From: Spirodela intermedia
Lineage: Eukaryota; Streptophyta; Magnoliopsida; Alismatales; Araceae
Assembly (NCBI GenBank): GCA_902729315.2
Contig: LR746267.1
Span: 2,209,501 to 2,273,500 of the forward strand
Direction: 5' to 3'
Length of the DNA stretch: 64,000 bases
Part shown: piece by piece, positions 4,600 to 62,885 of the stretch
How positions within the stretch are numbered: position 1 is the stretch's first letter
Layout: each line of letters opens with the position of its first letter
Translations under genes and position numbers: made by a program
The notes under the pieces: generated by a model
The model's database searches: none
Told to the model about the DNA's origin: nothing
Seen by the model: the letters and a program-made list of their open reading frames with translations, nothing else

Positions 4600-5418
4600 G
4601 AATTTCACCCTCCACATAAGGTTTAAGCCTCTAGCCATTCACCTTGAAATTTTTTCCTGATTTCAGATCTACAATTAATACAGCACCACAGTCATATAAT
4701 TTAATGATGATATAAGGACCATCCCATCTAGATTTAAGCTTACTTGAAAATAATTTCAATCTAGAATTGTAAAGCCAAAGTTTTTCATTGATGTGAAAGG
4801 TCTTACATGATTATACTTATCATGAAAACTTTCTCTTTGACTTTATAAATTTGTGCACTCTCATAGGATTCATTTTGTAACTTTTGAAGTTCATGGAGCT
4901 GAAGAATGTGGTTTTTGCCAGCCTAATTAAGAGACAAGTTGTGTTCCTTGATGGCCCAATTGGCCTTGTGTTCTAGCTCAACAGGCAGATGGCATGGTTT
5001 GCCAAAAATAAGTCTATATGGGAACATGCCTAAAGGAGTTTTGTAGGTAGTCTAATGATTTTTTTCAAAATATTTTTGACTTCTCTATTGGTGACTTCTA
5101 CTTGGCTGTTAGCTTGTGGGTGATATGGAGTGGTAATTCAATGATGTACCCCATATTTTTTCATTAGGGCTTTAAATTGATAATTATTAAAGTGTGACCC
5201 CCCATCACTGATTATAGCCCTTGGATACCCATATCGAGCAAAGATATGCTTAGATAAGAACTTGACCATAATCTTGTGATCATTTGTTCTAGTGGGGGTA
5301 GCCTCAATCCATTTTGAGACATAATCAACACCATGAGTATATATTTATAGCTTGAGGGGGGAGGGAAGGGTCCCATAAAATCAATAATTTAAGATTTGAG
5401 GACTTTAACTAATGACAG
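4600..5418 (-). pseudogene. Ty3/gypsy integrase relic
   Basis: On the minus strand, broken frames read as the integrase core and C-terminal region of an Athila-type element. From 5418 downward there are DFMGPFP (first catalytic Asp), a VDYVSKW-like stretch, AIISDGGSHF (second catalytic Asp), then TPLGM and LHELQKLQNE-like blocks, as in the better copy at 36016..37573. Stops and frameshifts are frequent. It is cut at 5418 by LTR1 copy P. Which element it came from is unknown; the LTR3 fragment to its left is a candidate. Confidence 0.8.
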
Positions 5419-5847
5419 TGATAAGTCTTCATTATCATGAGTTAATAATTAGTAAATAATATAGTTTTAGCCTTAACTCATTATAAATAGACTTATATTT
5501 GTGTTAAAGAATGATTTTTGGTTTTCAATTGATTAACGTGAATTTTTGGGTAATTATGTGATTTTATACGATTTTTACAGTTTTACTTTTGAGATAAATG
5601 AAGAACAAGAAATAAAAATAAAAATATTGCAAAAATGGGGGGACCCGTCGGCCAGCCGTGCCCGCAAGCGGGTCGGAAGCGCAGTCGGGGAGTAAGCCAC
5701 GAGCAGGAGCTCGAGCGGCTTGGCTTGGGGACCGACAGGGCATGCGTACGCCACTCCCCTTCCACATCACCGGTGGTCAGCCGGCTGTGGGGCAAGGAGT
5801 GGTCATGCACGCGCGAGAAGGAACTTTGCTCACAAAGCTAACATTAG

Positions 5848-5855
5848 TATATATT
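5848..5855 (+). promoter_or_regulatory. Putative LTR1 TATA box (TATATATT)
   Basis: The motif lies about 430 bases into the LTR and is preserved in most LTR1 copies, followed by a short GC-rich hairpin-like stretch and TGTGGGACT. By analogy with other plant LTRs this would place the U3/R boundary near 5880. Inferred from position and conservation only. Confidence 0.5.
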
Positions 5856-5935
5856 CGCCCGAAAAATCGGCATACAACCGATGTGGGACTAAACCCCCGT
5901 CACACCTTCCTTAGAAGAGGCGGGCAACCAGCGCG

Positions 5936-5946
5936 GGTTCGAATCC
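5936..5946 (+). other. Pol III B-box-like motif in LTR1 (GGTTCGAATCC)
   Basis: The string matches the tRNA T-arm/B-box consensus exactly. Equivalent motifs are seen in other LTR1 copies, for example near 3683, 28633, 29582, 42139 and 49770. No convincing A box or cloverleaf lies upstream, so this is not a tRNA gene. Confidence 0.45.
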
Positions 5947-7058
5947 TCCCAGAGTCAAAATTCATATATTTTTATCTGATTATCGCGACTTTCCTGCAGA
6001 TCGCCGGTGAAGGATTAAGCAACGAGAATCGTTGGATCATCGGCGAAAATCTCGTCAACACGATTCGCGGAGCATTGCTACTAAAATTGCTGAACGATTC
6101 GCGATAAAAGGATCGCAAATCCATCGAGTAAATCATCTCCGATTGATCGACGAACAAGCCGTCGTCGGGAAGAGGACGATCCGCCGGGAGACCAGTCGCC
6201 ACCTCCTGAGAGCGTACCAGATGCGATGAAGAGCCTCCTCTTGCTGCGCGGACCTGAGGATGAAGCTCCCTGACACGCGCCCCACCTCCATCCAGCTCCT
6301 CTCCGTCGGGTGACAGCCGTCGGAGAGCCGCAAAGTCACCGTTTTTCCGCTCCGCCGGGTGACAGCCGCCAGAGACGATTCGACGACCCACTTCATTGAT
6401 CTCTAGACTTTGCGAGAAGATTTAGAGATTGCCCACGTCGTCTTTGTCCAAGGAGAGCCTTCGAGGCCATGGACACTGCACGACGATCCTCCCGAATGCT
6501 CAGGATTCCGATGCATCGCTGACGCATCGCCGTCGCGACGCCGGAACTCTGTTTTCCTGCTTTCAATTTAATTTACGCTTCATTTAGTGATACTTTGTGT
6601 GATTTTAATTTACCAAACTATACTTCGTTAAATTACGATTCTTCTGGCTTTTACAGATTTTAATTTGATTAATTAAGTCGTCTGTAATCGCTTACGTAAG
6701 AATCGCCGGGTGGAACTCTGTTTCTGCCTGATTCGCGTTCGCCGGGCGCTGATGTCATCCTGACGCCCGCACCCTTATTTCCTTTTTTTTCGTGAATTTT
6801 AAATATATTTCCTTTTTATTTCCTAATATAAAATTCGTAAGAAAATCGTATTCATTGAAAAAAATTCTGAATAATTACCAGATATTATATTACATCCCTG
6901 TGATCGACCTGGAAAATTACTGCTATTTTTGGAATTTTTATTGAATTATAATTGATATATTTATTTAGAAATACTTCTAAATATTCAAAAATTTGTATTT
7001 TCTAGTTTTATAAATTTTATATTTGCGTGATTTAATATACAATGACTGAGTCACGTCA

Positions 7059-7530
7059 CAACCGTTGGAAATGACTCGACGACCCATTTCATTAATCTCT
7101 AGACTTCACGAGAAGATCTAGAGATTGCCTACGTCGTCCTTGTCCAAAGAGAGCCTTTGAAGCCATAGACACTATATGACGATCCTCCTGAACACTCAAG
7201 ATTCTGGTGTATCGTCGATGCATCGCCGTCATGACGTCGAAACTCTATTTTCCTACTTTCAACTTACTTTATGCTTCATTTAGTGATTAATTTTTGTATT
7301 TTTAATTTACCAAAATATATTTTGTTCAATTATGATTCTTTCAACTTTTATAGATCTTAATTTTATTAATTAAATCGTCTATAATCGCTTACGAAAGAAT
7401 CACCGAGTGGAACTCTATTTCCGCCCGATTTGTGTTCGTCAGGCATAGACATCATCCCAACGTCCACACCCTTATTTTATTTTTTTGTGAATTTTAAAGA
7501 TATTTCCTTTTCATTTCCTAGTATTTTAAA
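7059..7530 (+). repeat. LTR1 sense-3' half (5' LTR of element A1, cut by the inversion)
   Basis: The sequence begins abruptly inside LTR1 at CAACCGTTGG and runs to near the LTR end, where about 220 terminal bases are deleted (junction near 7524) before the primer-binding site. Its complement joins exactly, with a 5-base overlap GGTTG, onto the LTR1 half at 29160..30095, so the two were one LTR before copy Q inserted and the segment inverted. Confidence 0.88.
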
Positions 7531-7533
7531 TTT

Positions 7534-7553
7534 TGGCACTGTTGTCGGGGATG
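7534..7553 (+). other. Primer-binding site of element A1
   Basis: TGGCACTGTTGTCGGGGATG resembles the tRNA-Asp-type PBS (TGGCGCCGTTGCCGGGGA) common in plant Ty3/gypsy elements, with two likely C-to-T changes. It follows the LTR1 3' portion directly and precedes the gag leader. Confidence 0.75.
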
Positions 7554-7735
7554 TATTGCGTAATATTTAATATTTTTCTATTTTTCTCTTAGAGTACATA
7601 AAAAAAATAAATTTAACTCTTATTTTATTTTCTTTTTGCCGATTTGTTATTAGAAAAAGGAAACGAAAATAAGCAAGGCAAGGACTGAAGCATCTTGAAG
7701 GAGGGTAATAGTTACTAACTTTTTCCCTTGAATTA

Positions 7736-9130
7736 TTGATTTTTATGCATGGTAGAAGATCCTTGCATCAAAGGCTAGAAAATACTTTCATTATTTCATT
7801 CAAAAATAAAAACCTGAAAGAAAAATTAATTTTGATGGATCTTGAAGGAAGTACAGGTCAAATTGAGAACAATCCTGTGGCCATGAAAAATCATTATATC
7901 CCTGATTCATTTCAAAGAGCATCAAATATTAGAGTCCCATTAGCACCCATTGTTAAATTTGAAATAAATCTAGGAATTTTTTAAATGCCCCTTAATTTTC
8001 ATAGATTGACTTTAGAGGAATCTCATCAGCACTTAGAAAAATTTCATATGATCTGTGATTTAGTTAATCTCCCTCAAGTTACATCAGAAATTATTAAGAT
8101 GAAATTATTCTCTCATATACTTAGGGACAAACTAGCCATTGGCTATCCACATTAAATAGAGAATTAACTAGCTAGAAAGACATAGAACAAACAAACTTTT
8201 CTTCGAAAATTTTATCCCTTAGGGAAAACTCAAAATATGAGAAAACATATATGGAGTTTTTCTCAAAGACTAGGAGAAACTTTACATGAGACATGGGAAA
8301 CATTCAAAGATTTACTTAGAAAGTGCTCTCATCATGCTATACCCAAGTAGCAGCTCAATAGAATTTTTTATGATGGATTATTAGAACAACATAGAAATAT
8401 GGTTGATTCTATATGTGGAGGAGCTTTTATGGAGAAAATTCCTGATGAGATTTACAGTCTTTATGAGAATTTAAGTGAAAATTTGAGAGATCAAGCCTCT
8501 TTTGAATTATATGACAAAGATATGAAGAGAGAAATTTATGAATTGCATCATCATGATGATTCTAAACTTAGAAATGAGGTTAATCAGATTAATTAAAGAT
8601 TAGAAAAACTTAATTTACTTATTGACAATATTAGAAAGTCTCTTAACCCTCAATTTAATTCAAATAGTACACGTCCTATGTATGGTGAAAATGATCATTT
8701 CGAATTGCAATATCATCATAAGCAAGAACAAGTGTAGGTACCCCACAATTTTAGTAAAAATAGAGAATATTTTTCTAATTCTTATAATCTTAATTGGGGG
8801 AATAATTTTTCGTGGAGAAATCCAAATAATATTCAAAATCAGAAGTACTTAGATCCAATTCACATTTTGAATTTCGTCTAAAATAGGAACATAGATTTCA
8901 GAAAAATCAGTCCTCTCAAATCCAACCTGATGCTATGGAAATGATACAGCAAATGAGCCAAATGATGCAACAAATGAGCCAAATGATGCAACAAACTATG
9001 AATCAAATGAAGCTGCACCAGAAATAAATTATAGAGGCTCTTGGGAATAAGAGAGAAGAGGGACAACTACCTAGTTAGCCCATAGAAAATTCAGAAAATT
9101 GTCCAATAGTAGAATTTCAGCAAGAAGAGT
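7736..9130 (+). pseudogene. Degenerate gag of element A1
   Basis: Broken frames read as a Ty3/gypsy gag domain: QMLPNFHGLPLEEPHQHLEKF-like and EIIKMKLF-like blocks near 7980..8130, then LHETWETFKDLLRK (8281..8325), IFYDGLLEQ (8360..8400) and SICGGAFM (8408..8432), parallel to the Athila FYNGL...AAGGA region. A Met/Gln-rich stretch with repeated MMQQMSQ units follows (about 8935..9000). I see no CCHC zinc knuckle, unlike the Athila gag at 48718..49264. At least four stops or frameshifts interrupt it. A3 at 58301 is a sister copy. Confidence 0.75.
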
Positions 9131-9183
9131 TTAGCTAAATAAATTTAGAAAAAAACCCACGAAATAAAAATGTTAGGACAGTG

Positions 9184-10240
9184 AATACATTGAGTGAGAA
9201 TATTTTACCTGATCCTTATTTCTAATTATTAGAAGAAATTGATGATCTATTAGAAGTAAATGAGAATATTAAGGCCGAAAATATAGTAGTAGAAAATTTG
9301 AATAAAATCATTTATTACTTACAATTGATGAATGAATATAGTGAGGATGATGAAGAAAAAGAGCCCTTAGATGAAGAAACAACAACTGATCATGGAAAAA
9401 TCATCCAAATTTTAGTACAAGGGAGTAAAGACAAAAATGAAGAAAAACATATTTCAGGTGAGGAAAAATCAGTTGATTTGGGAGACGTAGGAGACGAAAT
9501 TAATAAATCTAATCATAATTTTGCAGCCATGGATGTTGATTGTGAGGATGATGATGTATATCATATACCGAAATTAAAAGATAGCTCTTAGGAAGATGAA
9601 GAATTTGATGAGTAAGAAACAAAAAGCTAGAAAAAGAGTTGATTCAACTAATGGGGAGAAACGGAAATAATGGATATGAATATAGAGATAATTTTGGAAG
9701 AGAAAATTTAAATTTTACTGAATTCATTAGATCTGAGATTAAAGAAGACAATCCTTCCATCCTTCAAAACCAACAGCCCATTATAATTATTTCTAAGCTT
9801 GAAATATTTCACTCTTCGCAAATTAAACAAATATGTATGAAAGATAAAATGGAGCAAGGGAAGATTATGTAGATAAAAGAAGACATTAAGAAATGGATGA
9901 ATAGAAGAATTAGAGATATCAATTTAGATGAAAAAATTTTAGATTGGGTAAGAGCTAATTTGAAAATTATATGGCTTGATCACATTTTATGGTCTATTAA
10001 TAGAAAGTATTTATTAATGAATGAAAGCCTTACAAAACAAAATAGAAATGAGGAAAGATTCTTTTCAAAATGGAAATATTATTTTTGGGAAAAAAATTTA
10101 ATTTCTATTTTTTTTTGGCTGAAAGTATGTCAAGGTATATATATGAAGTATACGAATTTACGCTAAATCTGAAAAAAAATATCATGAAACTTACCTTGGG
10201 ATACAAATATATTTTGATGGCCATAGATCATCTTATATAA
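9184..10240 (+). pseudogene. Conserved acidic ORF of element A1 (unknown function)
   Basis: I do not recognise this protein. It follows gag in the position where pol would be expected. It is acidic at first (EYSEDDEEKEPLDEE at 9328..9372 and a DVDCEDDDVYHIP block near 9535), then turns basic and aromatic (FFSKWKYYFWEK near 10060). The same protein is found in A2 (30265..31330) and A3 (59607..60650). Here it is broken near 9220 and 9590. An in-frame TAG at 9870..9872, shared by all three copies, is followed by about 97 open codons. It could be a gag extension, a captured gene or a highly diverged accessory ORF. Confidence 0.6.
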
Positions 10241-11094
10241 TCTAAGAGTTGTCTAACTGGAGACATTAAATTCAGCGCTACATGGGAGGCAACCCATGAT
10301 TTTTATTTCATTCTATTTGATTTTTTTTTAAGCTCTGTTTTTCTTAAAATTTCCTAGTACTTGTTTCTGTATTTGTTTTTTTCAAAAAAGTGCAGGAGAA
10401 AGAGTGTAAGATGAAGTGAAAAATTAAAAACGAGGTTGAGGTGATGTCTTTCTGAGCTTTATCATTTACGAAAATATTTTTAATGCTTAACTTTGCACAT
10501 ATGCATGCTTCACGTGAAAATTATATTTTCTGCATATTCTATTTCGATTTTTCTATGTCATTGAGGACAATGTCATTTTTAAGTTGGGGGGTGAAGTATT
10601 CATTATTAATTTATGTTGTAAGACGATTAAGAACATGTGTTTACATTTTATTCAACTTAGAACAGCAACTAAAAAAATAAAAAAATAAAAAAATTCAGAA
10701 AAACTACAACATCTATTTTCTGGTTTTCTGTCAGAAACAACAGACTATCAAAAATAGTAGACAAAAAACAACTTGAAATTTGAAATTATAGAAGACCCTT
10801 TTCTCACATTTCAATCCCCTAGATATATATTACTGAAATTCAAAATTACAACTATAAAGAGGATAATTTTGATTTATTTTTGACAAATTTACTACTACTA
10901 AAAATAGAACTGAAAATAGAAAATAGAACTACCAGAACTATCTAATTTACAAATTTCTTACATTATATTGCATGCATGAAAAATTAAATCAATTAGATTT
11001 GATTGATACCAAATAGATACTAGGAAGATTATTATTGAGTCAAAAGAATGATCTAGTAGCATGAAATGTTGGAATACTCTTTGGATACATGATA

Positions 11095-11553
11095 ATTTTT
11101 GTGATTTTAATTTACCAAAATATACTTTGTTCAACGACAATTCTTTCGACTTTTACAGATCTTTACTTGATTAATTAAATTATCTGTAATTGCTTATGTA
11201 AGAATCACCGGGTGAACTCTATTTCTGCCTGATTTGCATTCGTTGGGGGTGTTGATGTCATCTTGATGTCCACACCCTTATTTTCATTTTTCATGAATTT
11301 TAAATATATTTCCTTTTCATTTCTTAGTATAAAATTCATAGAAAATTGTATTCATTGGGAATAATTCTGAATAATTTCCAGATATTATATTACATCCTTG
11401 TGATCGACTTAGAAAATTATGGCTATTTTTGGAAGTTTTATTAAATTATAATTGATATATTATTCAAAAATACTTCTAAATATTCAAAAATTCATATTTT
11501 CTAGTTTTATAAATTTTAGATTTGCCTGATTTAATATACAACGGCTAAGTCGC
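11095..11553 (+). repeat. LTR1 sense-3' fragment (3' LTR remnant of element A1)
   Basis: It begins inside LTR1 (GTGATTTTAATTTACC region) and runs to within about four bases of the LTR end (GGCTAAGTCGC). The missing tip and the missing A2 gag beyond it suggest one deletion across the A1/A2 boundary. Confidence 0.7.
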
Positions 11554-11721
11554 ATTATTTACCCTCCTTCAATATGCTCCAGTCCTTGTCTTGCTTCTCT
11601 TCATTCCCTTTTGTTTAAAAAAAAACTCAACAAAAAAAAAAAAATATTTTTTGTATACTCTAGAGAAAAATAGGACAATACTAAATATTATGCAATACAT
11701 CCCCAAAAATGGTGCCAAATT
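11554..11721 (-). other. Leader and primer-binding site of element A2 (displaced by the inversion)
   Basis: Read on the minus strand, bases 11721 down to about 11697 give TTTGGCACCATTTTTGGGGA, a decayed tRNA-Asp-type PBS. The AT-rich gag leader follows, with the GAGTATA and AAGGAGGGTAA landmarks of A1 and A3. The gag that should follow is absent. The strand is opposite to the body of A2 (30096..32908), as the inversion predicts. Confidence 0.75.
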
Positions 11722-13353
11722 TAACATGACTTAGTCGTTGTATAGTAAATCATACAAATTTAAAATTTATAAAACTAGAAAGTATGATTTTTCACATATT
11801 TAGAAGTATTTCTGAACAAATATTCCAATTATAATTCAATAAAACTTCCAAAAAAATATCATTAATTTTTCCAATCGATCATAGGGATGTAATATAATAT
11901 CTAGTAATTATTCAGAATTTTCTTCAAATAATACTATTTTCTATGAATTTTATACTAAAAAATAAAAAGAAAATATATTTAAAATTAACAAAAAATGGAA
12001 ATCAGGGTGCAAACATCAGGATGACGTCAATGCCTTGGAAAATGCAAATCGGGCAGAAATAGAGTTCCACAAGGCAATTCTTACGTAAGCGATTACAGAC
12101 AATGTAACTGATCAAATTAAGATCTATAAAAGCCAAAAGAATCGTAAGTGGACGAAGTATATTTTGGTAAATTAAAATCACACAATTTTTCACTAAATGA
12201 AGCGTAAAGTAAGTTGAAAGCAAGAAAATAGAGTTCTGGCATCGCGACGGCAATGCGTCGGTGATGCACTAGAATCATGAGCGTTCAGGAGGATCATCAT
12301 ATAGTATCCACGTCCCCGAAGGCTCTCCTTGGGTAATCTCTAGATCTCCTTACAAAGTTTCGAGATTAATGAAATAGGTTGTCGAATTGTCTTCAACGGC
12401 TATCACCTAGTGGAGTGGAAAAATAGCGACTTTGCAGCTCTCTAACGACTGTCACCCAACGAAGAGGAACTGGATGGAGGTAGAGCACATGTCAAGGAGC
12501 TTCATCCTCAGGTCTGCACAATAAGAGGAGGTTCTTCATCGCATTTGGTACACTCTTAGGAGGTGGCGACTCATCTCATGGCAGATCGTCCTCTTCCCCA
12601 CGATAGCTTGTTCGTCGATCAATTAGAGATGCTTTACTCGATGGATTCGCGATCCTTTTATCGCGAATCATTCAGTAATTTTAGTAACAATATTTCGCGA
12701 ATTGCATTGACGAGATTTTCACCAATGGTCCAATGATTCTGGTTGCTTAATCCTTTACTGGTGATCTGTAGGAAAGTCGCGATAATCAAATAAAAAAATA
12801 TGAGTTTTTTGGCTCTAGGAGGATTCAACCTTGTACTAGTTGGCCACCCTTTTTGGGAAGGTGACATGGGTTTAGTCCCACATCGGTTGTGCACCAAATT
12901 TTCAGGTGAATATATAATAATGTTAGATCCTTAAGCAAGTCCCTTTCTCGCACATGTACAACCACTCTTTGCCCCACAATCGACTGGCAACTAGTGACGT
13001 GGAAAGGGAGTGATGCACACATGCTCCTATTGGTCCAAGTCGCTCGAGCCCCTACTCGCAGCTCCTCCCCGACTGTGCTTTCGACCCGCTCGCAGGCCCG
13101 ATTGGCCAGCGGGTCCCCTCATTTTGTAATATTTTTATTTTTATTTTTATTTCTTTTTTTTTATTGATCTCAAAAGTAAGACTATAAAAATTATATAAAT
13201 TTGTATAAAATCACAAAATTATCCAAAAAATCACATTAATCAATCGAAAACTACTTTTCACACTTTAACACAAATATAAGTCTATTTATCATGAGTTAAG
13301 GCTAAAACTATATTATTTACTAATTATTAACTCATGATAATGAAGACTTATTA
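11722..13353 (-). repeat. 5' LTR1 of element A2 (inside the inverted segment)
   Basis: A complete LTR1 of 1632 bases on the minus strand. Its sense end is CATGTTA rather than CACGTCA, the same variant found at the end of the A2 3' LTR (32909..34537). Its outer flank is GAGTT (13354..13358), the complement of AACTC, which directly follows the A2 3' LTR at 34538..34542. The two are therefore read as the LTR pair of one element, now on opposite strands because of the inversion. Confidence 0.85.
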
Positions 13354-13780
13354 GAGTTCCATCACCATTGGTTGCATTGATACATGCTTGATATTCTATG
13401 TTCATAAAAGAGGAGAAGAAGGTGTATGTCTAATTTTCAGGTAGGAGGAAACTCAAACCCTAAGTAGCCACAACTGAGAGTGACTTGCTTCTAGAGGAGT
13501 GAGACCCACTATTTACGTGTGATGTGAGTAAAATCCTAGCTTATAGTATGAAACCTAGAGAGAAGTAAGTTTTTCCCTTCATGACCACCAGCTCTTTCCA
13601 AAATTACAAAGGGATCAATCATGGATGTTTAGTATTTCATGGGGATATTCACGCTTAAAAGTACTATTGATAGTCTGAACACTTCATGCTTATATCTTTT
13701 TATTTTAAGGATGGATGGATAACTTGAGAAAACATAAGGACACTGCTAAGGGACTAGTAATGAATTAAGTTGGGGGGTGT
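13354..13780 (+). other. 3' non-coding end and polypurine tract of the Athila element
   Basis: The segment ends with CTAAGGGACTAGTAATG and the purine tract AAGTTGGGGGGTG (13768..13779), directly before LTR2. The same CTAAGGGACTAGCAATGA plus purine arrangement precedes the A2 3' LTR at 32909. Once the inversion is undone it continues 34538..36015, the other part of this region, across the A2 insertion (TSD AACTC). Confidence 0.75.
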
Positions 13781-15106
13781 TGATAACCTGATATTTATGT
13801 TGATTATTCCTTACATTTCATCTGGTTTTTGTTTATTTAAATCCTGAAAATATCATGTTATTAAGAAAATGATTTAAATATTTTTGGATTTGCATTAATT
13901 TCACTATTTGCACACTATGTATGAATTTTGCATAATTTTTGACTAACCCTACTTGACTTCATTAAAGTCAAGCAGTTTTATTACTAATAAATATTTTCAA
14001 GTTTTCATGCATGCAGAATTTAACAGAAATCAACAATAAATTAAGAGCATTTTAGTGGACGAAAGTTAGCTTAATGGGCTAGTAGTACTTTGGAGGAATT
14101 TCGGATTTGGATCTTCAAAGAGAAATTAGAGGAGGTTCGGGGGCCATGTCCAGGCCCATTTAGACCCGCCTAAGTCCGTAGAGGAAGCGATGTAGAAATT
14201 TATGGAGAGAGACTAGGGAATTATGAAGGGGCATTTTAGTCATACTTACCCTTGTATAAAGACTCTCTTCCTCCCTCTTTCCCATCCCATTCTGGACGTG
14301 CTCTAGCAACGGCTAGCTAGTAGGACAAGACATTCTCCAGGATTTGAGGTATCCACCTTGATAGATGTAAGTCGTTTTGACGCGTTCACTCTTGTTCTTC
14401 TCCTTCTTGCAGTGAAAAACGCCTGATCCTAGCGGAATATAAGGATCCAAGAAGAGGAAGGAGTCTTGAGGGCTCAAAGGACGAACATCAGCACCCATTT
14501 TCTGCTGTTTCCCATCGCTGTCTTCCGTTCTGCCCCCTCCAGCTGCTCCACGTTTTCCTCTGTTTTCACCCATCGTTCCTTCTCTCTGCGCCTTCTCCCG
14601 AAGCCTCCGTCTCTTCCCGCCGTCTCCTGTCGCACCGGCTGGCGAAATGCTCCCTGTCACTCGCTACGTGCCCGTCGCTCCTCGTCTCTCTCGTTCACCG
14701 AACACCACTGCCGCCTATCGCAAGTAGCCGCACGTCCGCTGAGCGCCGCCGCGTGCCCATCGCCAGCCGCCCCACGTCTGCCGACCACTGCCGTCGCCTT
14801 TCGCCAGCCGCCATGCACTCGCTGCCGGTCTCTGTGAGCCTGTCGCTCTCTCTCTCTCTCTCCCTACCCTTCCAGATGTAACCGAAAGTCCCAAATTTCA
14901 GATAGGTCCGGAACGGTCACAAGAGATTTGCAACCCGCGCAGCCCATCCTTGGACCCGACTGTCAACTGCCAAGGTAAGTTATTTTAGTGGATCGACCCC
15001 TTATTCGCCCTACATGTCTAATATAGAGTAACTAAGTAGAAAATTTATTATTGATTAAGTTTGAATTAAAATAGCAACATAAAAACCCTTAAATTTGGAC
15101 TTATCA
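13781..15106 (+). repeat. 3' LTR2 of the Athila element (displaced by inversion)
   Basis: It starts TGATAACCTG right after a polypurine tract and ends GGACTTATCA, followed by AACAA. It matches the minus-strand LTR2 at 51564..53185, flanked by GACAA in sense, closely apart from about 290 bases missing between TTATTTTAGT and GGATCGACCCC near 14988. It contains a hairpin-forming CTTGACTTCATTAAAGTCAAG-like motif (13950..13972), a transcribed-looking TATAAAG at 14256 and a CT microsatellite at 14847. ORFs in its GC-rich part are not counted as genes. Confidence 0.88.
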
Positions 15107-15480
15107 AACAATTGGAGACACTAGTGTGGCAGCTTGATTTCGTTTGGACATGTCACACCACACCAAAAGTCATTTAAGTATCTTCTGAAAGTATTGTGCT
15201 GCTCACTGGAGAGATCCATTGAAGGAGGGGTCGACCACGCTGTCACTATCATCTTGGAAGAGAAGGGAAGAGTTGACCACTCACGAGAGGCCTTGAGTAT
15301 AGTCAAGGGAGGAAGGAACAAGTTTTGCCAATCACTAGAGACATTGATTGTACAAAAAGAGGAAGGAAACGAATTGTCATTTTCACGTTAATCATTCAGA
15401 TTATAAAGATAATTGATAATATCTATTTTAGTAGATAATAATTAATTACTGCTTTTATATCTCTAATGATGATGTGTAAT
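15107..15480. other. Unassigned DNA outside the Athila 3' LTR
   Basis: I recognise no gene. Open frames of 66 and 85 codons on opposite strands overlap and show no known motif. With the inversion undone this joins 53186 onward across the Athila target site, so it may be part of the LTR3 element that was hit. Confidence 0.3.
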
Positions 15481-16300: not shown

Positions 16301-16322
16301 TTTCTCTGTTTTAGAGCACTAG

Positions 16323-19788: not shown

Positions 19789-19895
19789 AATCCATTCTCT
19801 TGAAATAAAATAATACCTAGGACTATCTTCAGAGAAGATAAAAAGGTGGTCTGCCCTTGCACATGTATGTGTGTATGATGCTCTTTGCTCCATAA
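19789..19895 (-). repeat. Fragment related to the 15878..15990 LTR1-like segment
   Basis: CTCTTGAAATAAAATAATACC followed by GACTATCTTCAGAG and GGTGGTCTGCCCTTGCACATG-like text matches 15895..15985 in order. It lies between two old LTR1 copies, consistent with an older repeat broken by insertions. Confidence 0.45.
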
Positions 19896-21200
19896 TGTGA
19901 CTTAGTCTTTGTATAGTAAATCACATAAATTTAAAATTTATAAAACTAGATAATATTAATTTTTGAATATTTAAAAGTATTTTTAAATAAATATATTAAT
20001 TATAATTCAATAAAAGTTTCAAAAATAATAAAAGTTTTCTAGGTTGATCGTAGAGATGTAATATAATATCAAGTAATTTTCAAAAATTTTCTCAAAAAAT
20101 ATGATTTTTAATGAATTTTAGATTAAGAAATAGAAATAAAAATAAAATATATTTAAAATTCACGAAAAAGATAAATAAGGGTGTGGACATCAAGATGACA
20201 TCAACACTTGACAAATGCAAATCGAGTAGAAATAAAATTTTGTCTGATGATTCTTACCTAAGTGATTACAAACGATTTAATTGATCAAATTAAGATCTAT
20301 AAAAGCTAGAAGAATCATCATTGAATCAATAATAGTTTGATATATTTAAATCAAACAAATTATCACTAAATGAAGTAAAAATTAAGTTGAAAGTAAGAAA
20401 ATAGAATTTTAGTGTTGTGGTAGTGAAGCGTCAGTGATGCACTAGAATCTTGAGTGTTTGGAAAGATTGTTGTGTAGTGTCTATAGCCTCAAAGGCTCTC
20501 CTTGGACAAGGATAATGTAGACAATCTCTAGATTTTTTTGTGAAGTTTAGAGATTGATAAAATGAGTCGTCAAATCGTCTCTAGTAGCTGCACCCAATAG
20601 AATAGAAAAATGACGACTTTGTAGCTCCCCAACGGTTGTCACCCCATAGAAAAGAGCTAGATGGAGGTGAGGCATATGACAGGGAGCTTCATCCTCAAGT
20701 CTACATAATAAGAGGAAGCTCTTCATCGCATCTGATACGTTCTTAGGAGGTGATGATTCTGGTGGATTGTCTTCTTCCCGATGATGACTTGTTTGTTGAT
20801 CAATTAGAGATAATTTACTCAATAGATTTGTGATCATTTTATCATAAATGATTTAATAATTTTAGTAACAATACTCTGTGAATCATATTAATGAGATGTT
20901 CATTGATGATCCAATGATTCTGATGACTTAATCCTTCACTGATGATCTATAAAAAAGTCGTGATAATTAGATAAAAAATTAATTTTGGCTCTAAGAGGAT
21001 TCAAACTCGCATTGGTCACCCGCTTGCATGAGAGAGATTGAAATAAGTACTTTAATGTCCTTATAAAGTGACATCATGATGGTATCTTTGTTATAATTAA
21101 GGGATATTTTACATATTAAAATCTTCAAAGCCTTTTCAAGGAAGGTGTGATGTGGGTTTGTCCCATGTAGGTTGTACACCGAAGTTTTAGGCAAATATAA
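19896..21200 (-). repeat. Old LTR1 copy, truncated at its sense start
   Basis: It begins TGTGACTTAGTC, a decayed form of the LTR1 terminus, and runs through the LTR1 landmarks to about 21200, past the ATGTGGGTTTGTCCC stretch. The last third (sense start) is missing. It belongs to the long, CG-depleted subfamily. Confidence 0.8.
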
Positions 21201-21650
21201 GTGCTACATGTAGGTTGTACACCTCTATTTTAGATGATTTTTCTGAAATTTTGATCAATCATAAGTGCTACATATCTATGGAATAATTGGCTAAAAGTAT
21301 GCTTGCTAGTTTTTGTGACTAAGATCTTTCTACTGAAAATTCTGTTTTAAAGATCTAGTAAGTTCCGAATTTTTTTTGAAGAATCAAAGAGGCCACCTTG
21401 AAAATAAGGACTGAAATTGTTATTACATGTTAACCAATTCTTGCACATGATCAATATATACGAAAGTTGTCTGTTATTTCTCAATTCAAATTTCTTGTAA
21501 AGATTACATCTCTCTTCTAAAAATAATTAATTTGGAATATTTTCATAAAATTTTATTTATTGTGATCATTGAGGATTTTATACACATGTATTGCTAGTCA
21601 AGGTATATAAGACTATCATAGTAATAAGTAGATAGAGTAGAACAAATTAG
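21200..21650. other. Unassigned AT-rich DNA
   Basis: No gene seen. Position directly upstream of a plus-strand gag relic suggests retroelement leader sequence. A phrase around TAAGTGCTACAT occurs twice (21198 and 21261). Confidence 0.3.
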
Positions 21651-22610
21651 CAAAACTACAAGTAAGCAAATGCAAGGACATAGATCCCAAAAGGATGTAG
21701 TCATTCCACCAGCAAAAGAGTTAGGAGAGTCATCACAAGTAGAAGTGACCTTAAAAGAAGAAACAAAAATGAAAAGAAACCAAAGGGAAAATAGAAGAAT
21801 GCATCTTAGAGATCACTCAGCTCCCTTATAGTATAGACCAGTGAATAGAATCAATGCTCCTATAGAGAATGATGTCAACTTTAGAGTTGATCATCATCTT
21901 GCCCAAATGTTACCACATTTTCATGGGATGGCTTATGAAGAGCCAAATAAACATTTGGAAGATTTCTCACATCTATGAGATTTCGCACTATCCCAACATT
22001 CCCATGGAGATAGAGAAGATGATATTGTTTCCCTTCACACTCATAAAGCTAAGGACTAGCTTTGTGCCTTGGTCGAGGAGCTAAATTCATGGATTGACAT
22101 GGAGGCAGCATTCCTTAAGAAATTTTCTTCAGTAGGAAAAATGAATTCTATTAGGAGGGCAATTAGGGATTTCGTGCAAGGGCCTCAAGAATCATTTTAT
22201 GAGACATGGGAGATAAAGATTACACCTGCTAGTATCCACATCATGAGATATAAAATTGGCAACTTGTGCATATTTTTTATGAAGATTTGAATGAGAGAGA
22301 TAGGTTCATGATTGATGCTGCCTTAGGTGTGACTTTAATGAACAAATATGAAGATGAAGCTATTGATCTTATTGAAATATTGTTGGAAAACAGTGCACAT
22401 CACTATGCTTTAAACTAGAATGGTAGAACTTTAGGATTTAGAAGAGGAAGTATTCCTAATGTGAAAATTATAGAGACTAGACTATTTATTGATAAATTAG
22501 ACAAACTAATTGAATGTGCAGATGTATTGATGAGAAAATTCACAACAAATGAATTTGACCAACAACTTCTCAAACAAGAGCAACTTGAATCAATCTACAC
22601 ATGAGAATAT
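21650..22610 (+). pseudogene. Athila-type gag relic
   Basis: Frames on the plus strand read in order: RRMHLRDHSAP and an RPVNRINAPIENDVNF stretch (21797..21885), HHLAQMLPHFHGMAYEEPNK (21891..21950), FLKKFSSVGKMNSIRRAIRDF (22110..22173), QESFYETWE (22186..22212), DAALGVTLMNKYEDEAIDLIE (22315..22377). This is the plan of Athila gag. Several stops (for example after LEDFSHL near 21978) and frameshifts break it. It ends about 20 bases before LTR5 with no zinc knuckle or pol, so the 3' part has been lost. Confidence 0.8.
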
Positions 22611-22629
22611 TAAGGGTATGTCAACCTAT

Positions 22630-23762
22630 TGATAATTATAAATTAGTAGTTGTATCTATGTATTAATATCTTATATATAGATGCTAATTAATGGGTAAGG
22701 AATACAATTATACATGTGTTACCAACTCATTATGACATTTATAATATTTTATCATTTAAGTCTTAATATATATTATTTTATTTATATTATGAGACTAACC
22801 CTACTTGACTTATAAAGTTTAGTGGTGATTCTCTCACATTTTCATGATACTTATTTGATTGCAAAAACTTAGGTGAGCTTTTATTATGAGTTGAAAGTAA
22901 TAGAAGAAGCCTAAGTTTTCAACGCAAGTCTTATGGAGAGGGTTGGCCTAATATGTTTATGGGCCCAAGAGAGGGTATCATTTTGGTCAGGCCCATTTGG
23001 ACCTTAAGTGGCACATGACCTTGGCTTAGCCCATTTGGGCTTAAAAGGTTATTAAGAGATGAGATCTAGGCCACCTATCTTAAGACACTTTAAGATGAGA
23101 TTAAGAGGAGGATTAGAGTGTCACCCTCATAAAAAATTTAGGTTGTCTACAAAGAGAGTTGATTATTAATCATAATCATCTATTAGAGGGGCTTAATTCT
23201 CTAAAGGTTTAAGGTATCTCATCTCTCTTTTAGAGGGTGTTTTTTGGCTCTCTCTAATAGTGGCTAGCCAAAGGAAAAATAAGAAAAATTAAAGCCTGGT
23301 CAATGACTTTCTCTTCCTTAAGATCGTCATGGAGAAGAGATTACCTGGAGCATATCAAGATCGTCGTGGATCAAGTATCACTTGACCTAAGACTAGCGCA
23401 TAACGAGATCTATGCAACATCTAGATTTGGGGCGTCCTTGTAATCTTCTCTATAGATAAATTAACTCTTAATTCGTAGGAATTGTATCATGTATTTTATC
23501 ATTCTATTGTATTAGATTCATTCTCTATTTTACCACACTTTTCATTTCTCTTGTCTTCACCTTTTTTAGATTTAATTCCGCCCTTCACAATCTCAAAGTA
23601 TATATATATATATAATGAATAAAATTCTTACTCTCATTATCTATACTTCTTGAGGATCGACCCTTAATTATCCTAAACTGAAGACTGAGGTTTTATAAAT
23701 ATTATTTGTATGAACTTAGTTATATCATTATGTCATATTTAACTTCTAAATCGAGTTCATCA
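22630..23762 (+). repeat. LTR5, complete copy (1133 bases)
   Basis: It starts TGATAATTATAAATTAG and ends CGAGTTCATCA. The start recurs at 62711 and the body at 1..758. It carries GACTAACCCTACTTGACTT (22793..22811), which is also found in LTR2 (13941..13959), a (TA) run near 23607, and GAGGATCGACCC near the sense 3' end. Flanks CCTAT and CTTGT do not match, so no TSD is seen. It may be a 3' LTR of the element whose gag relic lies upstream. Confidence 0.7.
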
Positions 23763-24943
23763 CTTGTCCCAAGATGTTGCTAGTTGAATGTTTCAGAAAG
23801 TAAGAGGGCTGACTCCACCCATGATCATTGAGTAAGAGGATGTGATCGTCTTTTATTGTCCTCTCCTATATGGCCACACATCATCTTCCCACACTGCTGA
23901 CGAATGACATCGCTCATATGCCATCTTTATCATCTCCAACTTTCTCCACAACTCTGAGGTCAATATGGGGTCACATCATTATAAAAATCAATCCTTCCCA
24001 ACTGGTTTATCATCGAAGTATGATAACGTTCTCGCCGCCTTCTTTTCCACGAACTCTCACGTCTGTATCAGGTGTCACACTACACTGATAAATAAATCAT
24101 TCCTGACTGTTTTATTTTCGATATATGACAGCTTCCGGCCCCCCGGGGTACTGTAGACCGATAAACCTTAACGTCAGAAACCCAATAAGAATACGGCATA
24201 CTGACAGCGAGAGAGAGAGAGAGGAGGGACATCGTCAGTATCCCTTCATTGATTTGCGTGAGCTGGGCAACACAGAGCCCAACTGACGGGGTTGGGGAAG
24301 GGGTTAATGATACCTGCAGAAAATTTACTCAGCTCAAGTCTGCAGAAAGTCCCAGCAAAGTAGCCCGAGAAGAGGGGGAGGGCTATCACTTTGTGTGAGG
24401 TGATGAGGAAGAAGATGGGTCCCGACGAGGAAGCTTGTCCCTGGCTTGAAGGAGGAAAGGAGAGGGCCTCCGGTTCCCGGGCGGAGTTGACAATATTTTG
24501 ATATGGAGTTTAACTATGAGGGGTCAAAACCCAAGGACATTAGGGTGCATCTGGCGGACTCACCGGGCCGCAAAGGCAAAAGCAAGAGTTCCCAAATTAG
24601 CAGCTGTCCTGTCATCTTCGATGAAATGTCACCAGAAATGTCACGTCGTTTTTCCAAAATGGGGAATAGAAAACGACATTTTCGCACAAGGCACTTTCAG
24701 CAAGGGAAGAGTTGACCACTAGACACCAACTCAAACTATGAGCAAGGAAAAGGAAAATTCGTCAGGCGGCAGAGAGAGCTCGGATTACAAACCACGGGTG
24801 GAGAGGGATGGAGCGAAATCTTGTGGGTCCCCAGATTCGGTTGACTTTCTGGTTGAACAGGTTCGACCAGAGTAGTTCTCATACCTAAAGGAACCTATCC
24901 TGCATCGCCATTATTTCTCCTCGGAGGGGCGCGATCCGATCTT
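23763..24943. other. Upstream region of the purine-permease gene
   Basis: GC content rises across this stretch. It holds two related CATTATAAAAATCAATCCTT / TAAATAAATCATTCCTG phrases (23972 and 24089), a CCCCCCGGGG palindrome (24140), a GA microsatellite (about 24209..24223) and an open frame of 70 codons (24503..24715) encoding a basic peptide I cannot place. The TATA box lies downstream of that frame, so it is not a uORF of the main transcript. I see no repeat of the LTR families here. Confidence 0.4.
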
Positions 24944-24950
24944 TATAAAA
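24944..24950 (+). promoter_or_regulatory. TATA box of the purine-permease gene
   Basis: TATAAAA lies 50 to 56 bases before the start codon, in a GC-rich setting. A start of transcription about 30 bases downstream (near 24977) would leave a 5' leader of only about 25 bases. Confidence 0.7.
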
Positions 24951-24999
24951 CCCAAAGCCTTCTGTCAGTGAGGGTGAACTATAGAGAGTGGATTCTTCC

Positions 25000-26209
25000 A
25001 TGGCCATCGAAGCCCAATCGTCGGCCCCCGAGGAGAGGGGGAGAGAGAGAAAGGAAACCTTCAGACGAGTAGCCCTCCTCCTCAGCATCATCATATTGGT
25101 CGTCGGCTTCGTCGGTGCGCCTCTCCTCATCCGCATCTATTTCTTGCATGGCGGCTCCAGGGTTTGGGTGACGACCATCGTCCAATTCATCGCCTTTCCC
25201 CTCGTTCTTCCCCTCCTCTACGCCTCTTACCTCCACCGCCGGCGGCGAGGAGACAGAAAGCTCATCCAGCTCTCCGCCAACATCACGGCGGCGAGCGTGG
25301 TGATCGGAATCATCTCCGCTGCTGATGGCTACCTGTACGCCTACGGGTCAATGTCCCTCCCCGTGTCCACCTCCACGCTGGTGTTCTCCACGCAGCTGGT
25401 CTTCACGGCGGTCTTCGCCTTCCTCCTGGTGAGGCAGAAGTTCACGGCTTTCTCGGTCAACGCCATCGTCCTGCTCGTGATCGGGGCGGTGCTGCTCGGC
25501 GTTCAGTCCAGCGGAGACCGCCCCCCGGGGGTGTCAGACAAGAAGTATTACCTGAGTTTCATCGCCATGATCGGCGCTGCCGTTCTTTACGGCTTGATGA
25601 TGCCTCTGATCCAGTGGACCTACTGGTGGTTAAAGCAGAAGGCGACCCTCACCACCGTGATGGAGATGCAGGTCGTCATGTCCGTCTCCGGCGTCGTCTT
25701 CTCCGTAGTCCCCATGATCATCAACAAGGACTTTCCGGTCAGCGCAGGCCCATCTTCTTCCTCCCCACCCCCCCCCCCCTTCTGTATGATCTACCCACCG
25801 CCATTGAGGAGCCTTTTTTGAGTTCTTTCAGGCCATTAAAAGGGAGGCAGAGCAGATTTACGAGCTAGGGGAAACCAAGTACTATCTGGTTCTGGTGGGC
25901 GCCGCCGTCTTATGCCAGGTAGCGAGCTTGGGCTACTTGGGGGTGACCTGCTGCTCCTCCGCCCTCTTCGCCGGCGTGGTCATCGCCATGCTTCTGCCGG
26001 TGGGGGAGATCCTGCCGGTGCTGCTGCTGGACGAGCAGTTCACCAGCGCCAAGGGGATCGCCACAGCCTTGTGCTTCTGGGGCTTCCTCTCCTATCTCTA
26101 CGGTGAGCGCCAACAGACCCAGGAGAAGCCGGCGCCAACTCCCATCAACGCCGGCGTGGAGCTGATGGTGCCTCGTGCCAGCGTCGTCCCCACAGAAGCC
26201 ACTCCCTGA
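25000..26209 (+). CDS. Purine permease (PUP) family transporter
   Basis: Plant PUP proteins are multi-pass membrane carriers (drug/metabolite transporter superfamily) that move purines, cytokinins and related compounds. Two exons, 25000..25737 and 25832..26209, encode 371 residues, normal for the family. The ATG at 25000 is the first in frame; a TAG at 24982 closes the frame upstream. The product has a hydrophilic N terminus, about ten hydrophobic segments, SLPVSTSTLVFSTQLVFTAV (about 116..135) and QKFTAFSVNAIVLL, both typical of PUPs, an AAVLYGLMMPL segment, then LGETKYYLVLVG and SGLLAGVV-like plus LLPVGEILPVL in exon 2. The gene is GC-rich with GC-ending codons, unlike its surroundings. It lies within the inverted segment, 1.3 kb from the right breakpoint. 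Family assignment is firm; substrate and subfamily are not determined. Confidence 0.93.
25738..25831 (+). other. Phase-0 GT-AG intron of the PUP gene
   Basis: The donor GTCAGC follows the codon for Pro after NKDF, and the acceptor TTCTTTCAG precedes GCCATTAAAAGG, which resumes the family reading AIKREAEQ. The intron is 94 bases and contains a C homopolymer (around 25770). Reading through it would stop at 25821 and lose the last third of the transporter, which supports splicing. Confidence 0.88.
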
Positions 26210-26990
26210 TAGGTGGCGGCGTCGCCCAGTTCTTTCTTCGTCCTCCAAATCTCTCCCATGGTTTATCAGTCAAACGCCCCTCGTGCCACACGGAATCCCC
26301 AGGAAATCTCGATCATCTCAACTTGCAAGGAAGCATGTCGGGCCCAGCGTTTAGTATTTTATCACGGTAATCATGTGTTTTAATCAGCATTAATTCCAGG
26401 TATTTTTACTACTTGAATTGGGACAATAACCGAGATCTTGCCCGTGATTAATGTAAGTCTTCGTGTTATTTAATAATCGACCATAAATTAGAAATCGCAA
26501 TGTCCAAGTGGGTGGGTACCGAATTTTTTTGGCATAGATTTATAAAATATAATATGATAGATAATTCACATGCTGCCCACACCTTCGCCTTAAACAGTTT
26601 AGTCGAAGGCTGGATTACTTGAAATGGTAAGAATGATTCAGGAAAAAACATATATGAATGATATATTATTGTAATATGTATGATAATAAGTATTGATTAT
26701 CATGTGACCCCTATAAGTGAGTGGTCATCATAGAGAGAGAAAAATTGAAATTTCTTTACCATTATATCCCTCTCATCAATATTATTCTCTGATGTATCTC
26801 CTCCGATCATTAATATCACCGATTCTCAAGAAAACTCTTCTTTTGCTTTTGACTCACCCAACACTCTCTCCCACCTTTGACCTGCTCCACTCGTCACATG
26901 TAAAAACAATGAAAAATTTTAGCGATGTACCCCTCCAATTATATACAAGTATATATAACCAATTATATCCCTAACCAATTATATACAAAA
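26210..26990. other. Downstream region of the PUP gene
   Basis: The 3' flank turns from GC-rich to AT-rich near 26340. I see no clear AATAAA signal or second gene; open frames of 61 and 85 codons show no known motif. Confidence 0.35.
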
Positions 26991-26995
26991 TAGTT

Positions 26996-27067
26996 CCCCT
27001 CCAACCATGTATGACCTACTCCCAAGAAAGCCCCCCTCCAACCATGTATGACCTACTCCCAAGAAAG
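26996..27067. repeat. Perfect tandem duplication, period 37
   Basis: A 35-base string starting CCCCTCCAACCATG and ending CCCAAGAAAG occurs at 26996..27030 and 27033..27067 without a mismatch, which implies a recent duplication. Confidence 0.9.
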
Positions 27068-27119
27068 TCATCATCTTGCCGTTGACCCACCCAACTCTCT
27101 CTCCAAGTATCATCTGACA

Positions 27120-27470
27120 CCCAGCTTCGAACAATGTGTTGTAAGGCACCTCTTCACTAATTGGCTGTGAAGTATCATATCACAAGGCAGTCAGCTCTCC
27201 AATCAATTGTTAAGAGTCACGCCCTATGCTAGAAAAATGTGTTGTGAGGCACCACACCAGCTCATATCACAAGGCACCCAGCTCCAACCAATGTGTCCCA
27301 AAGCCTATCCCAAATCAAGTGACACCAACTTATTGTGAGGCACCACACCAACTCGTACCACAAGGCACCCAGCCCAAACGAAAGTGTCGCGAGGCACCAG
27401 CTCTGAACCAAGTGTCACGAGGCACCTGCCTTGAAATAAGGTGTCACTAGACACCCCATGTGATGTTACA
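27120..27470. repeat. Degenerate minisatellite (AAGGCACC / GAGGCACC units)
   Basis: Phrases such as TGTGAGGCACCACACCARCTC, CACAAGGCACCCAGC and AAGTGTCRCGAGGCACC recur in irregular order about ten times. The clearest long unit (about 95 bases) repeats at 27239 and 27335. The array ends about 50 bases before the right inversion breakpoint. Confidence 0.65.
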
Positions 27471-27519
27471 TCAAGCTGATGTATTGGGTTGTGTAAAGTA
27501 CTAATGGACTCTAGCTGTC

Positions 27520-29159
27520 TGACGTGACTCAGTCGTTGTATATTAAATCACGCAAATATAAAATTTATAAAATTAGAAAATACAAATTTTCAGATATTTA
27601 GAAGTATTTCTAAATAAATATATTAATTATAATTCAATAAAAATTCCAAAAATAGCGGTAATTTTCCAGGTCGATCACAGGGATGTAATATAATATCTGG
27701 TAATTATTTAGAATTTTTTTCAATGAATACGATTTTCTTACGAATTTTATACTAGGAAATAAAAAGGAAATATATTTAAAATTCACGAAAAAAAAGGAAA
27801 TAAGGGTGCGGGCGTCAGGATGACGTCAGCGCCCGGCGAACGCGAATCAGGCGGAAACAGAGTTCCGCCCGGCGATTCTTACGTAAGCGATTACAGACGA
27901 CTTAATTAATCAAATTAAAATCTGTAAAAGCCGGAAGAATCGTAATTTAACGAAGTATAGTTTGGTAAATTAAAATCACACAAAGTATTACTAAATGAAG
28001 TGTAAATTAAATTGAAAGTAGGAAAACAGAGTTCCGGCGTTGCGACGGCGATGCGTCGGCGATGCACCGGAATCCTGAGCGTTCGAGAGGATCGTCGTGT
28101 AGTGTCCACGGCCTCGAAGGCTCTCCTTGGACAAAGACGACATGGGCAATCTCTAGATCTTCTCGCGAAGTCTAGAGATCAATGAAGTGGGTCGTCGAAT
28201 CGTCTCCGGCGGCTGTCACCCGGCGGAGCAGAAAAACGGTGACTTTGCGGCTCTCCGACGGCTGTCACCCGACGGAGAAGAGCTGGATGGAGGTGGGGCG
28301 CGTGTCAGGGAGCTTCATCCTCAGGTCCGCGCAGCAAGAGGAGGCTCTTCATCGCATCTGGTACGCTCTCAAGAGGTGGCGACTGGTCTCCCGGCGGATC
28401 GTCCTCTTCCGGACGACGGCTTGTTCGTCGATCAATCGGAGATGATTTACTCGATGGATTCGCGATCCTTTTATCGCGAATCGTTCAGCAATTTTAGTAG
28501 CAATGCTCCGCGAATCGCGTTGACGAGATTTTCGCCGATGATCCAGCGATTCTCGTTGCTTAATCCTTCACCGGCGATCTGCAGGAAAGTCGCGATAATC
28601 AGATAAAAATATATGAATTTTGACTCTGGGAGGATTCGAACCCGCGCCAGTCGCCCGCCTCTTCTGAGGAAGGTGTGACGGGGGTTTAGTCCCACATCGG
28701 TTGTACGCTGATTTTTCGAGCGAATATATACTAATGTTAGCTTTGTGAGCAAAGTTCTTTCTCGCGCGTGCATGACCACTCCTTGCCCCACAGCCGGCTG
28801 ACCACCGGTGATGTGGAAGGGGAGTGGCGTACGCGTGCCCTGTCGGTCCCCAAGCCAAGCCGCTCGAGCTCCTGCTCGTGGCTTACTCCCCGACTGCGCT
28901 TCCGACCCGCTTGCGGGCACGGCTGGCCGGCGGGTCCCCCCATTTTTGCAATATTTTTATTTTTATTTCTTGTTCTTCATTTATCTCAAAAGTAAGACTG
29001 TAAAAATCGTATAAAATCACATAATTACCCAAAAATTCACGTTAATCAATTGAAAACTAAAAATCATTCTTTAACACAAATATAAGTCTATTTATAATGA
29101 GTTAAGGCTAAAACTATATTATTTACTAATTATTAACTCATGATAATGAAGACTTATCA
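27520..29159 (-). mobile_element. LTR1 copy Q (right inversion breakpoint)
   Basis: A complete 1640-base LTR1 reads TGACGTGACTCAG on the left and GACTTATCA on the right, so it is on the minus strand. Left flank CTGTC (27515..27519) and right flank GGTTG (29160..29164) differ. CTGTC is the complement of GACAG left of copy P, and GGTTG that of CAACC right of copy P. It holds a perfect hairpin with 10-base arms (28457..28466 and 28473..28482). CG-rich parts are nearly undecayed, so it is young. Confidence 0.93.
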
Positions 29160-30095
29160 GGTTGTCACCTAGCGGAGTGGAAAAACGGCGACTTTGCAGC
29201 TCTCCGACGGTTGTCACTTGACGGAGAGGAGCTGGATGGAGGTGGGGCGCATGTCAGGGAGCATCATCCTTAGGTCTGTGCAACAAGAGGAGGCTCTTCA
29301 TTGCATCTGGTACGTTCTTAGGAGGTGGCAACTCGTCTCCTAGTGGATCGTCCTCTTCCTGACAATGGCTTGTTCATCAATCAATCGAAGATGATTTACT
29401 CGATGGATTTGTGATCCTTTTATCGCGAATCATTTAGCAATTTTAGTAGCAATACTCTGCAAATCGTGTTGATGAAATTTTCGCCAATGATCTAGTGATT
29501 CTCGTTGCTTAATCCTTCACCGGCGATCTGCAAGAAAGTCTCAATAATCAGATAAAAATATATGACTTTTGATTCTGGGAGGATTCGAACCCACGCCGAT
29601 TATCCGCCCCTTCTAAGGAAGGTGTGATGTGGGTTTAGTCCCACATCGGTTGTGTGCCGATGTTTCGGGTGAATATATAGTAATACTACATTTCTAAGCA
29701 AAGTTCTTTCTCTCGCATGTACGACTACTCCTTGCCCCATAGCCGGCTGGCCACCAGTGACGTGAAAGGGGAGTGGCGTACACGTGCCCATATCAGTCGA
29801 AGCCGTTCGAGTCCCTGCTCGTGGCTACTCCCCGACTGAGCTTTTGACCTGCTTGTGGGCCCGACTAGCCAGTGGGTCCCCCCCCATTTTGTAATATTTT
29901 TATTTTTATTTCTTGTTCTTCATTTATCTCAAAAGTAACACTGTAAAAATCGTATAAAATCACCCCAAAAATTCACATTAATCAGCTGAAAGTCACTTTT
30001 CACATTTTAACACAAATATAAGTCTATTTATCATGAGTTAAGGCTAAAACTATATTATTTACTAATTATTAACTCATGATAATGAAGACTTATCA
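29160..30095 (-). repeat. LTR1 sense-5' half (5' LTR of element A1, cut by Q and the inversion)
   Basis: It begins abruptly at GGTTGTCACCTAGCGG inside LTR1 and ends in TTATCA at 30095, directly followed by GTTGCACC of element A2. Together with 7059..7530 on the other side of the inverted segment it makes one LTR1, broken at a 5-base duplicated site. Its position inside the A2 ORF shows that A1 had inserted into A2 in the opposite orientation. Confidence 0.87.
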
Positions 30096-62875: not shown

Positions 62876-62885
62876 NNNNNNNNNN
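62876..62885. other. Assembly gap (10 N)
   Basis: Ten N bases, a conventional gap of unknown size. LTR5 on its left and Athila-like 3' sequence on its right do not continue each other, so the real gap may be long. Confidence 0.95.

Follow-up and report, generated by a model that had tools for sequence, protein, structure and literature searches.

Ectopic recombination between inverted copies of a transposable element (TE) leaves chimeric copies with exchanged target-site duplications (TSDs), as has been documented for the Drosophila element BuT5 (PMC3355041). In inversion 2s of D. mojavensis the inverted segment lies between two copies of this one TE, and the exchanged TSDs are described by its authors as 'unequivocal evidence' of ectopic recombination (PMC3355041). 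Here, we describe a similar configuration in the duckweed Spirodela intermedia, where a 20.5-kb segment is enclosed by two inverted solo long terminal repeats (LTRs), named P and Q, of a retrotransposon family that we call LTR1. The DNA concerned is a stretch of 64,000 nucleotides (contig LR746267.1; C4:2209501-2273500), referred to below as the window; coordinates without a contig prefix count from its first letter, and the genome searched comprised 136.5 Mb in 32 contigs.

The likeness to inversion 2s has its limits. That inversion, as its report presents it, involves a transposon with 9-bp flanks of which one copy was cut to a 27-bp fragment, and a non-inverted species served as reference (PMC3355041), whereas P and Q are full-length solo LTRs that lie 20 kb apart, have TSDs of 5 bp and lack a non-inverted reference. 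Maize centromere 10 offers a likeness in plant LTRs, since recombinant chimeras are known there by their mismatched TSDs and inversions lie nearby. Mismatched TSDs at that locus can also be assembly errors and, unlike the situation of P and Q, no inversion with an exchanged pair of TSDs is described in the relevant passages of that paper (PMC4806543). For S. polyrhiza, solo LTRs are reported to outnumber complete elements by 8 to 1 (Michael et al. 2017, quoted in PMC7645714), and inverted pairs of solo LTRs may therefore be common in the genus. We found no earlier report of this inversion in the open-licence literature on Spirodela, solo LTRs and inversion; the sole 'inversion' in the genome paper refers to karyotype rearrangements between the two species (PMC7645714). 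We regard the locus described here as a well-recorded and probably real 20.5-kb inversion, which adds one more case to a process already known.

Exchanged flanks of two inverted solo LTRs

The features at the edges of the segment are listed below, where P0 and Q0 denote the presumed LTRs before exchange.

5414..5418, plus strand: left flank of P, GACAG; inferred ancestral TSD partner 27515-27519 (CTGTC)
5419..7058, plus strand: P, solo LTR1 at the left inversion edge, presumably a P0/Q0 hybrid (alignment, tree)
7059..7063, plus strand: right flank of P, CAACC; inferred ancestral TSD partner 29160-29164 (GGTTG)
7059..27519, no strand: segment taken to be inverted, 20,461 bp (TSD-pair count under reversal)
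27515..27519, plus strand: left flank of Q, CTGTC
27520..29159, minus strand: Q, solo LTR1 at the right inversion edge (alignment, tree)
29160..29164, plus strand: right flank of Q, GGTTG

Both P and Q are solo copies of LTR1 of 1640 bp in opposite orientation, and they align with 46 mismatches and no indels (97.2% identity), with two exact runs of 101 bp in common. The edges read GACAG / TGATAAGTC...ACGTCA / CAACC for P and CTGTC / TGACGT...CTTATCA / GGTTG for Q, and the coordinates, lengths and flanks that an earlier, sequence-only reading had given for these LTRs proved exact. Read in the orientation of the element, P is GACAG...CAACC and Q is CAACC...GACAG, which is a reciprocal swap of TSDs (5/5 and 5/5 bases). 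As that reading had also claimed, un-inverting 7059-27519 restores the TSDs of P and Q at once. Since the crossover point is free to fall anywhere within the LTR, the flipped DNA measures between 20,461 and 23,741 bp.

Among 51 aligned LTRs, Q is the closest relative of P and vice versa (97.2% against at most 95.4% for any other), and the two are sisters with a support of 0.998 in a tree that FastTree built from 53 LTRs, of which two were joined across a nested insert. The possibility that P and Q are the two LTRs of one element was rejected, as their inner flanks resemble neither a primer-binding site (PBS) nor a polypurine tract (PPT) and their orientation is opposite. For dating, a clock on these differences would be biased, since 45 of the 46 mismatches are transitions and 22 of the 46 lie in CpG context; nor are P and Q the two LTRs of one insertion.

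To place this swap among other LTR1 copies, we compared 41 near-full-length copies with readable flanks, namely P, Q and 39 others. The latter are the nearest relatives of P from the best 40 of 3378 first-look candidates, minus P, Q and the duplicate of Q, so that the set represents the closest relatives of P and not the whole LTR1 family. The boundary was shifted by hand in 5 of the 39 copies, and two of the 39 (L044 and L045) represent the same duplicated place in near-identical form. The family has TG...CA ends, a 5-bp TSD and PBS-side and PPT-side sequence, as LTR retrotransposons do, the PBS-like and PPT-like sequences being assigned by eye. Its placement in the Athila lineage of Ty3/gypsy is our guess, from the PBS-like sequence and the top abundance of Athila in the published lineage table. 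In that table, Athila is the most abundant lineage (PMC7645714). TSDs match at 5/5 bases in 17 of the 39 copies and at 4/5 in 9, while another 9 have a one-sided PBS-like AATTT or PPT-like GGGTG flank and thus look like LTRs of longer elements. The remaining 4 have neither a TSD nor such a flank. An exact reciprocal flank swap was found for P and Q only among the 820 pairs of the 41 copies. A random reciprocal match of two 5-mers has a probability of 4^-10, or about 8e-4 across 820 pairs, and this figure precedes any requirement of the same chromosome, a 20-kb spacing or inverted orientation.

Nested elements across the edges of the proposed inversion

Two further LTR1 elements, E2 and an outer element E1, are interrupted at the edges of the segment and provide tests that are independent of the flanks of P and Q.

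7059..7524, plus strand: part of the host LTR1 (5' LTR of E2), LTR positions ~944-1411, inside the inversion
7550..11094, plus strand: internal region of E2; 7550-10654 is 88% identical to 58036-61078
11090..11557, plus strand: remnant of the 3' LTR of E2, flank TTTAC, which mismatches the other flank of E2, GCAAC
11722..13353, minus strand: 5' LTR of E1, with PBS-like AATTT inside and flank AACTC outside; within the inversion
29165..30095, minus strand: remainder of the host LTR1 (5' LTR of E2), LTR positions 1 to ~944, outside the inversion, joining 7059-7524 without a gap
32909..34537, plus strand: 3' LTR of E1, with AGGTG on the left and AACTC on the right; outside the inversion

The stretch 29165-30095, when reversed, corresponds to LTR1 positions 1 to ~944 and 7059-7524 to ~944 to 1411, and the joined halves align to P as a single ungapped block across the join (P 320-1172). 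Because the halves join without a gap, Q0 appears to have been nested in an LTR1 copy that was later cut by the inversion. The LTRs of E1 were recognised in a listing of LTR1 ends that allowed at most 5 mismatches to the end motifs. As assembled, they differ in direction on the two sides of the inversion edge; upon reversal they become the two ends of one element with the TSD AACTC/AACTC. They are sisters in the tree of 53 LTRs (support 0.977) and have 17 rare states in common, the highest number among 28 pairs of old LTRs, the next being 12.

We then counted correctly oriented, matched TSD pairs and obtained 4 as assembled versus 7 after the P/Q reversal. Among 472 reversals between LTR ends (P/Q included), 7 pairs were reached only by two equivalent choices of the P/Q edges; 26 of the rest gave 6 pairs and 444 gave 1 to 5. 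Some of the reversals that score 6 use an E1 edge of the 7-pair solution, so that 6 is not an independent background. The inversion proposed in the sequence-only reading is thus supported beyond the TSDs, in that the same reversal rejoins the host LTR1 and pairs the LTRs of E1.

These joint matches also bear on coincidence, by which P and Q would be unrelated solo LTRs that lost their TSDs through inter-element recombination or deletion and whose flanks match by chance. Four of the 39 other copies do lack both a TSD and a PBS-like or PPT-like flank, and one copy on C13 (L053) also carries GACAG on its left, with a wider flank unlike that of P. However, the reciprocal match extends over 10 of 10 bases, and the reversal that restores it repairs the host LTR and E1 as well. 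As TSDs, host LTR and E1 match jointly, coincidence is very unlikely and we give it hardly any weight.

Overall, the locus presents inverted TE copies at the edges, exchanged TSDs and, with the exception of the TSD of E2, restored features that span the breakpoints, which is what TE-mediated inversion by non-allelic homologous recombination (NAHR) leaves behind. We consider it likely that this 20.5-kb LTR-mediated inversion is real in the plant, and we infer that the crossover took place there and not in the assembler. The starting point would have been two inverted solo LTRs of one LTR1 subfamily, about 20 kb apart: P0 with the TSD GACAG, and Q0 with the TSD GGTTG, inserted within the 5' LTR of a different LTR1 element. 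A crossover between P0 and Q0, by NAHR within one chromosome or between sister chromatids, would have inverted the intervening DNA, which includes a PUP gene, one piece of the host LTR and E1 in its 5' part, and P and Q would now be hybrids carrying the exchanged TSDs. The proposed order of events is insertion of E1, insertion of E2 into E1, insertion of Q0 into the LTR of E2 (with P0 arriving independently) and, last, the inversion.

A real inversion or a flip in the assembly

The S. intermedia assembly (clone 8410) is based on nanopore and Illumina reads and comprises 136.6 Mbp in 18 pseudomolecules, the largest of which is Si09 with 13.4 Mbp (PMC7645714). At the present locus it contains a gap and a duplication.

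62876..62885, no strand: N10 gap, preceded by 6151-62875, of which a second copy with 2 differing columns lies 86 kb downstream

Window 5419-62875 recurs 86,182 bp downstream as a 57-kb near-identical direct repeat (C4:2301101-2358546; L007-L013). The two copies differ in 73 columns, of which 71 fall within the first 732 bases of P and 2 within 6151-62875. At the end of the first copy lies a ~165-bp high-copy repeat (62711-62875), which is also present at 22630-22790. The counterpart of P in the second copy, P2, has the left flank GCTCT and a chimeric left half: over its first 730 bases it is 97-100% identical to 39 other copies (best 40 of 3063 candidates, itself included), and it switches from this young subfamily to P beside or inside a 109-bp exact run (P 745-853), the longest that P has in common with the one young copy compared. 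The simplest reading of these data would be that a single locus was assembled two times, as the end of the first contig (A) and as the inside of the second (B). Contig B would then pass abruptly from a young LTR into P, and a mis-join has probably occurred once at this LTR. Since P in contig A has no such step when compared with Q, contig A is the better guide.

A pattern search for an LTR end with GCTCT directly behind it, and then the remainder of the host LTR as expected, gave one match, at C9:4516255. This LTR was rejected as the true partner of the left flank of P2, as it is only 94.4% identical to the first 719 bases of P2, versus 97-100% for the 39 others; it probably inserted independently at the same site of the LTR. 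With at most 3 mismatches, the left junction of P2 was found at P2 itself and at two further places, one on C3 and one on C8. As a separate observation, C9:4516255 (L064) and C4:2301100 (L007:7600) appear to be independent LTR1 insertions at the same point of a host LTR1 (GCTCT, ~LTR position 1036).

Alternatively, P could be a real recombination hub that, besides taking part in the inversion with Q, recombined ectopically once more, with a young LTR1 copy, in which case the duplication with P2 would be a real, very recent, segmental one of at least 56.7 kb and not an assembly overlap; we regard this joint claim as improbable, with a slender chance at best.

More serious is the alternative that the plant keeps the ancestral order and that the hybrid assembler jumped between the inverted P and Q at exact stretches. 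The assembly was built by a MaSuRCA super-read/nanopore hybrid approach that first gave 191.9 Mb and, after filtering and curation, 136.6 Mb (PMC7645714). At the same LTR, a contig end is duplicated next to an N10 gap and P2 is chimeric, and P and Q do have 101-bp exact runs in common. In maize centromere 10, five elements whose TSDs did not match were corrected on resequencing (PMC4806543). On the other hand, a flip needs two reciprocal hops in LTRs that have 46 differences, and nanopore reads of at least 10 kb at 62-fold were used, according to the same methods (PMC7645714), against an LTR of 1.64 kb. Also, the Q junction is identical in both assembled copies, although these are probably not independent, and an exact swap occurs in none of the other 819 pairs among the 41 copies. 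By our count, one mis-join (P2, in contig B) would suffice for a real inversion, whereas no fewer than three would be needed for an artefactual flip. A real inversion is favoured because fewer assembly errors are needed and long reads were used; the flip is somewhat unlikely in our view, though still a substantial concern.

As a sub-case of the real inversion, the clone could be heterozygous and have both orders, of which the haplotype filter kept one. The authors did remove duplicated sequences from heterozygous regions, as the assembly description states (PMC7645714). Yet the two assembled copies have the same orientation with 2 differing columns in 6151-62875, and the left flank of Q has only two full matches in the assembly, again in the same orientation. 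Heterozygosity seems distinctly unlikely.

Several observations weigh against an inversion in the plant. The TSD of E2 itself is not restored by the reversal (GCAAC versus TTTAC), and ~1.26 kb of internal sequence of E1 is unaccounted for between its two parts. The LTRs of E1 are 82.1% identical to each other and, by raw identity, nearer to other copies (84.8% and 85.8%); old, decaying copies may give such identities, which do not themselves support the pairing. The scaffold is unreliable here, as is evident from the double assembly of 6151-62875, the end of its first copy at the N10 gap and the chimeric P2, and an assembler that hopped beside or inside a 109-bp run could hop in the 101-bp runs of P and Q too. 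Finally, this assembly contains no unrearranged allele or empty site among the matches listed for the left flank of P (4500-5418; best 40 of 242 candidates) and the reversed left flank of Q (26500-27519; 11 of 11), and relatives of both flanks lie nowhere side by side among them. Many relatives of the P flank end at about window position 5385, 33 bp before P, so that there is little prospect of an empty paralogous site.

If the plant itself has this inversion, it would be one that carries a gene and can be reconstructed cleanly, in a duckweed genus with mainly asexual reproduction and many solo LTRs. Solo LTRs would then serve as substrates for further rearrangement, beyond being footprints of deletion. 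Should it be a flip of the assembly, exchanged TSDs would offer an inexpensive check on hybrid assemblies. In both cases, the pairing of TSDs across nested LTRs reveals the reversal without a second genome.

The PUP gene and other LTR1 copies

24988..26209, plus strand: PUP-type purine permease gene, with open stretches at ~24988-25752 and ~25820-26209 (exon edges approximate)

The two open stretches match Pfam family PF16913 at profile positions 3-223 and 223-319 of 321. Because they cover the profile from 3 to 319, the PUP gene appears unbroken by the inversion. That this is the only host gene, as had been claimed from the letters alone, holds so far: a non-transposon family scored above the gathering threshold for the two PUP stretches only. 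The Pfam comparison covered 13 of 18 open reading frames (ORFs) of at least 120 amino acids plus PUP exon 2, the other 5 ORFs lie inside LTR1 copies, and short exons may escape it. The ORF at 34597-34977 has two Pfam matches, both sub-threshold.

LTR1 is repeatedly nested in LTR1, as in the host of Q (29165-30095 plus 7059-7524), in 40223-43806 (host of 41041-42667) and in L027. A further LTR1 element at 38098-46563, with the TSD ATAGT, apparently lies inside a retrotransposon pol region (integrase, 36752-37573; reverse transcriptase, 46542-47180). A 144-bp unit within LTR1 varies in tandem number among copies, as at C9:4514349-4516265 (L065, L064) and in L060. The copies at C2:8429107-8430846 (L045) and C2:8561639-8563378 (L044) lie in opposite orientation, 132 kb apart, with the same flanks. 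They differ by 7 mismatches in 1740 bp and form a near-identical inverted duplication, either real or due to assembly, and similar mirrored rows are found for other repeats at C2:8.5-9.0 Mb.

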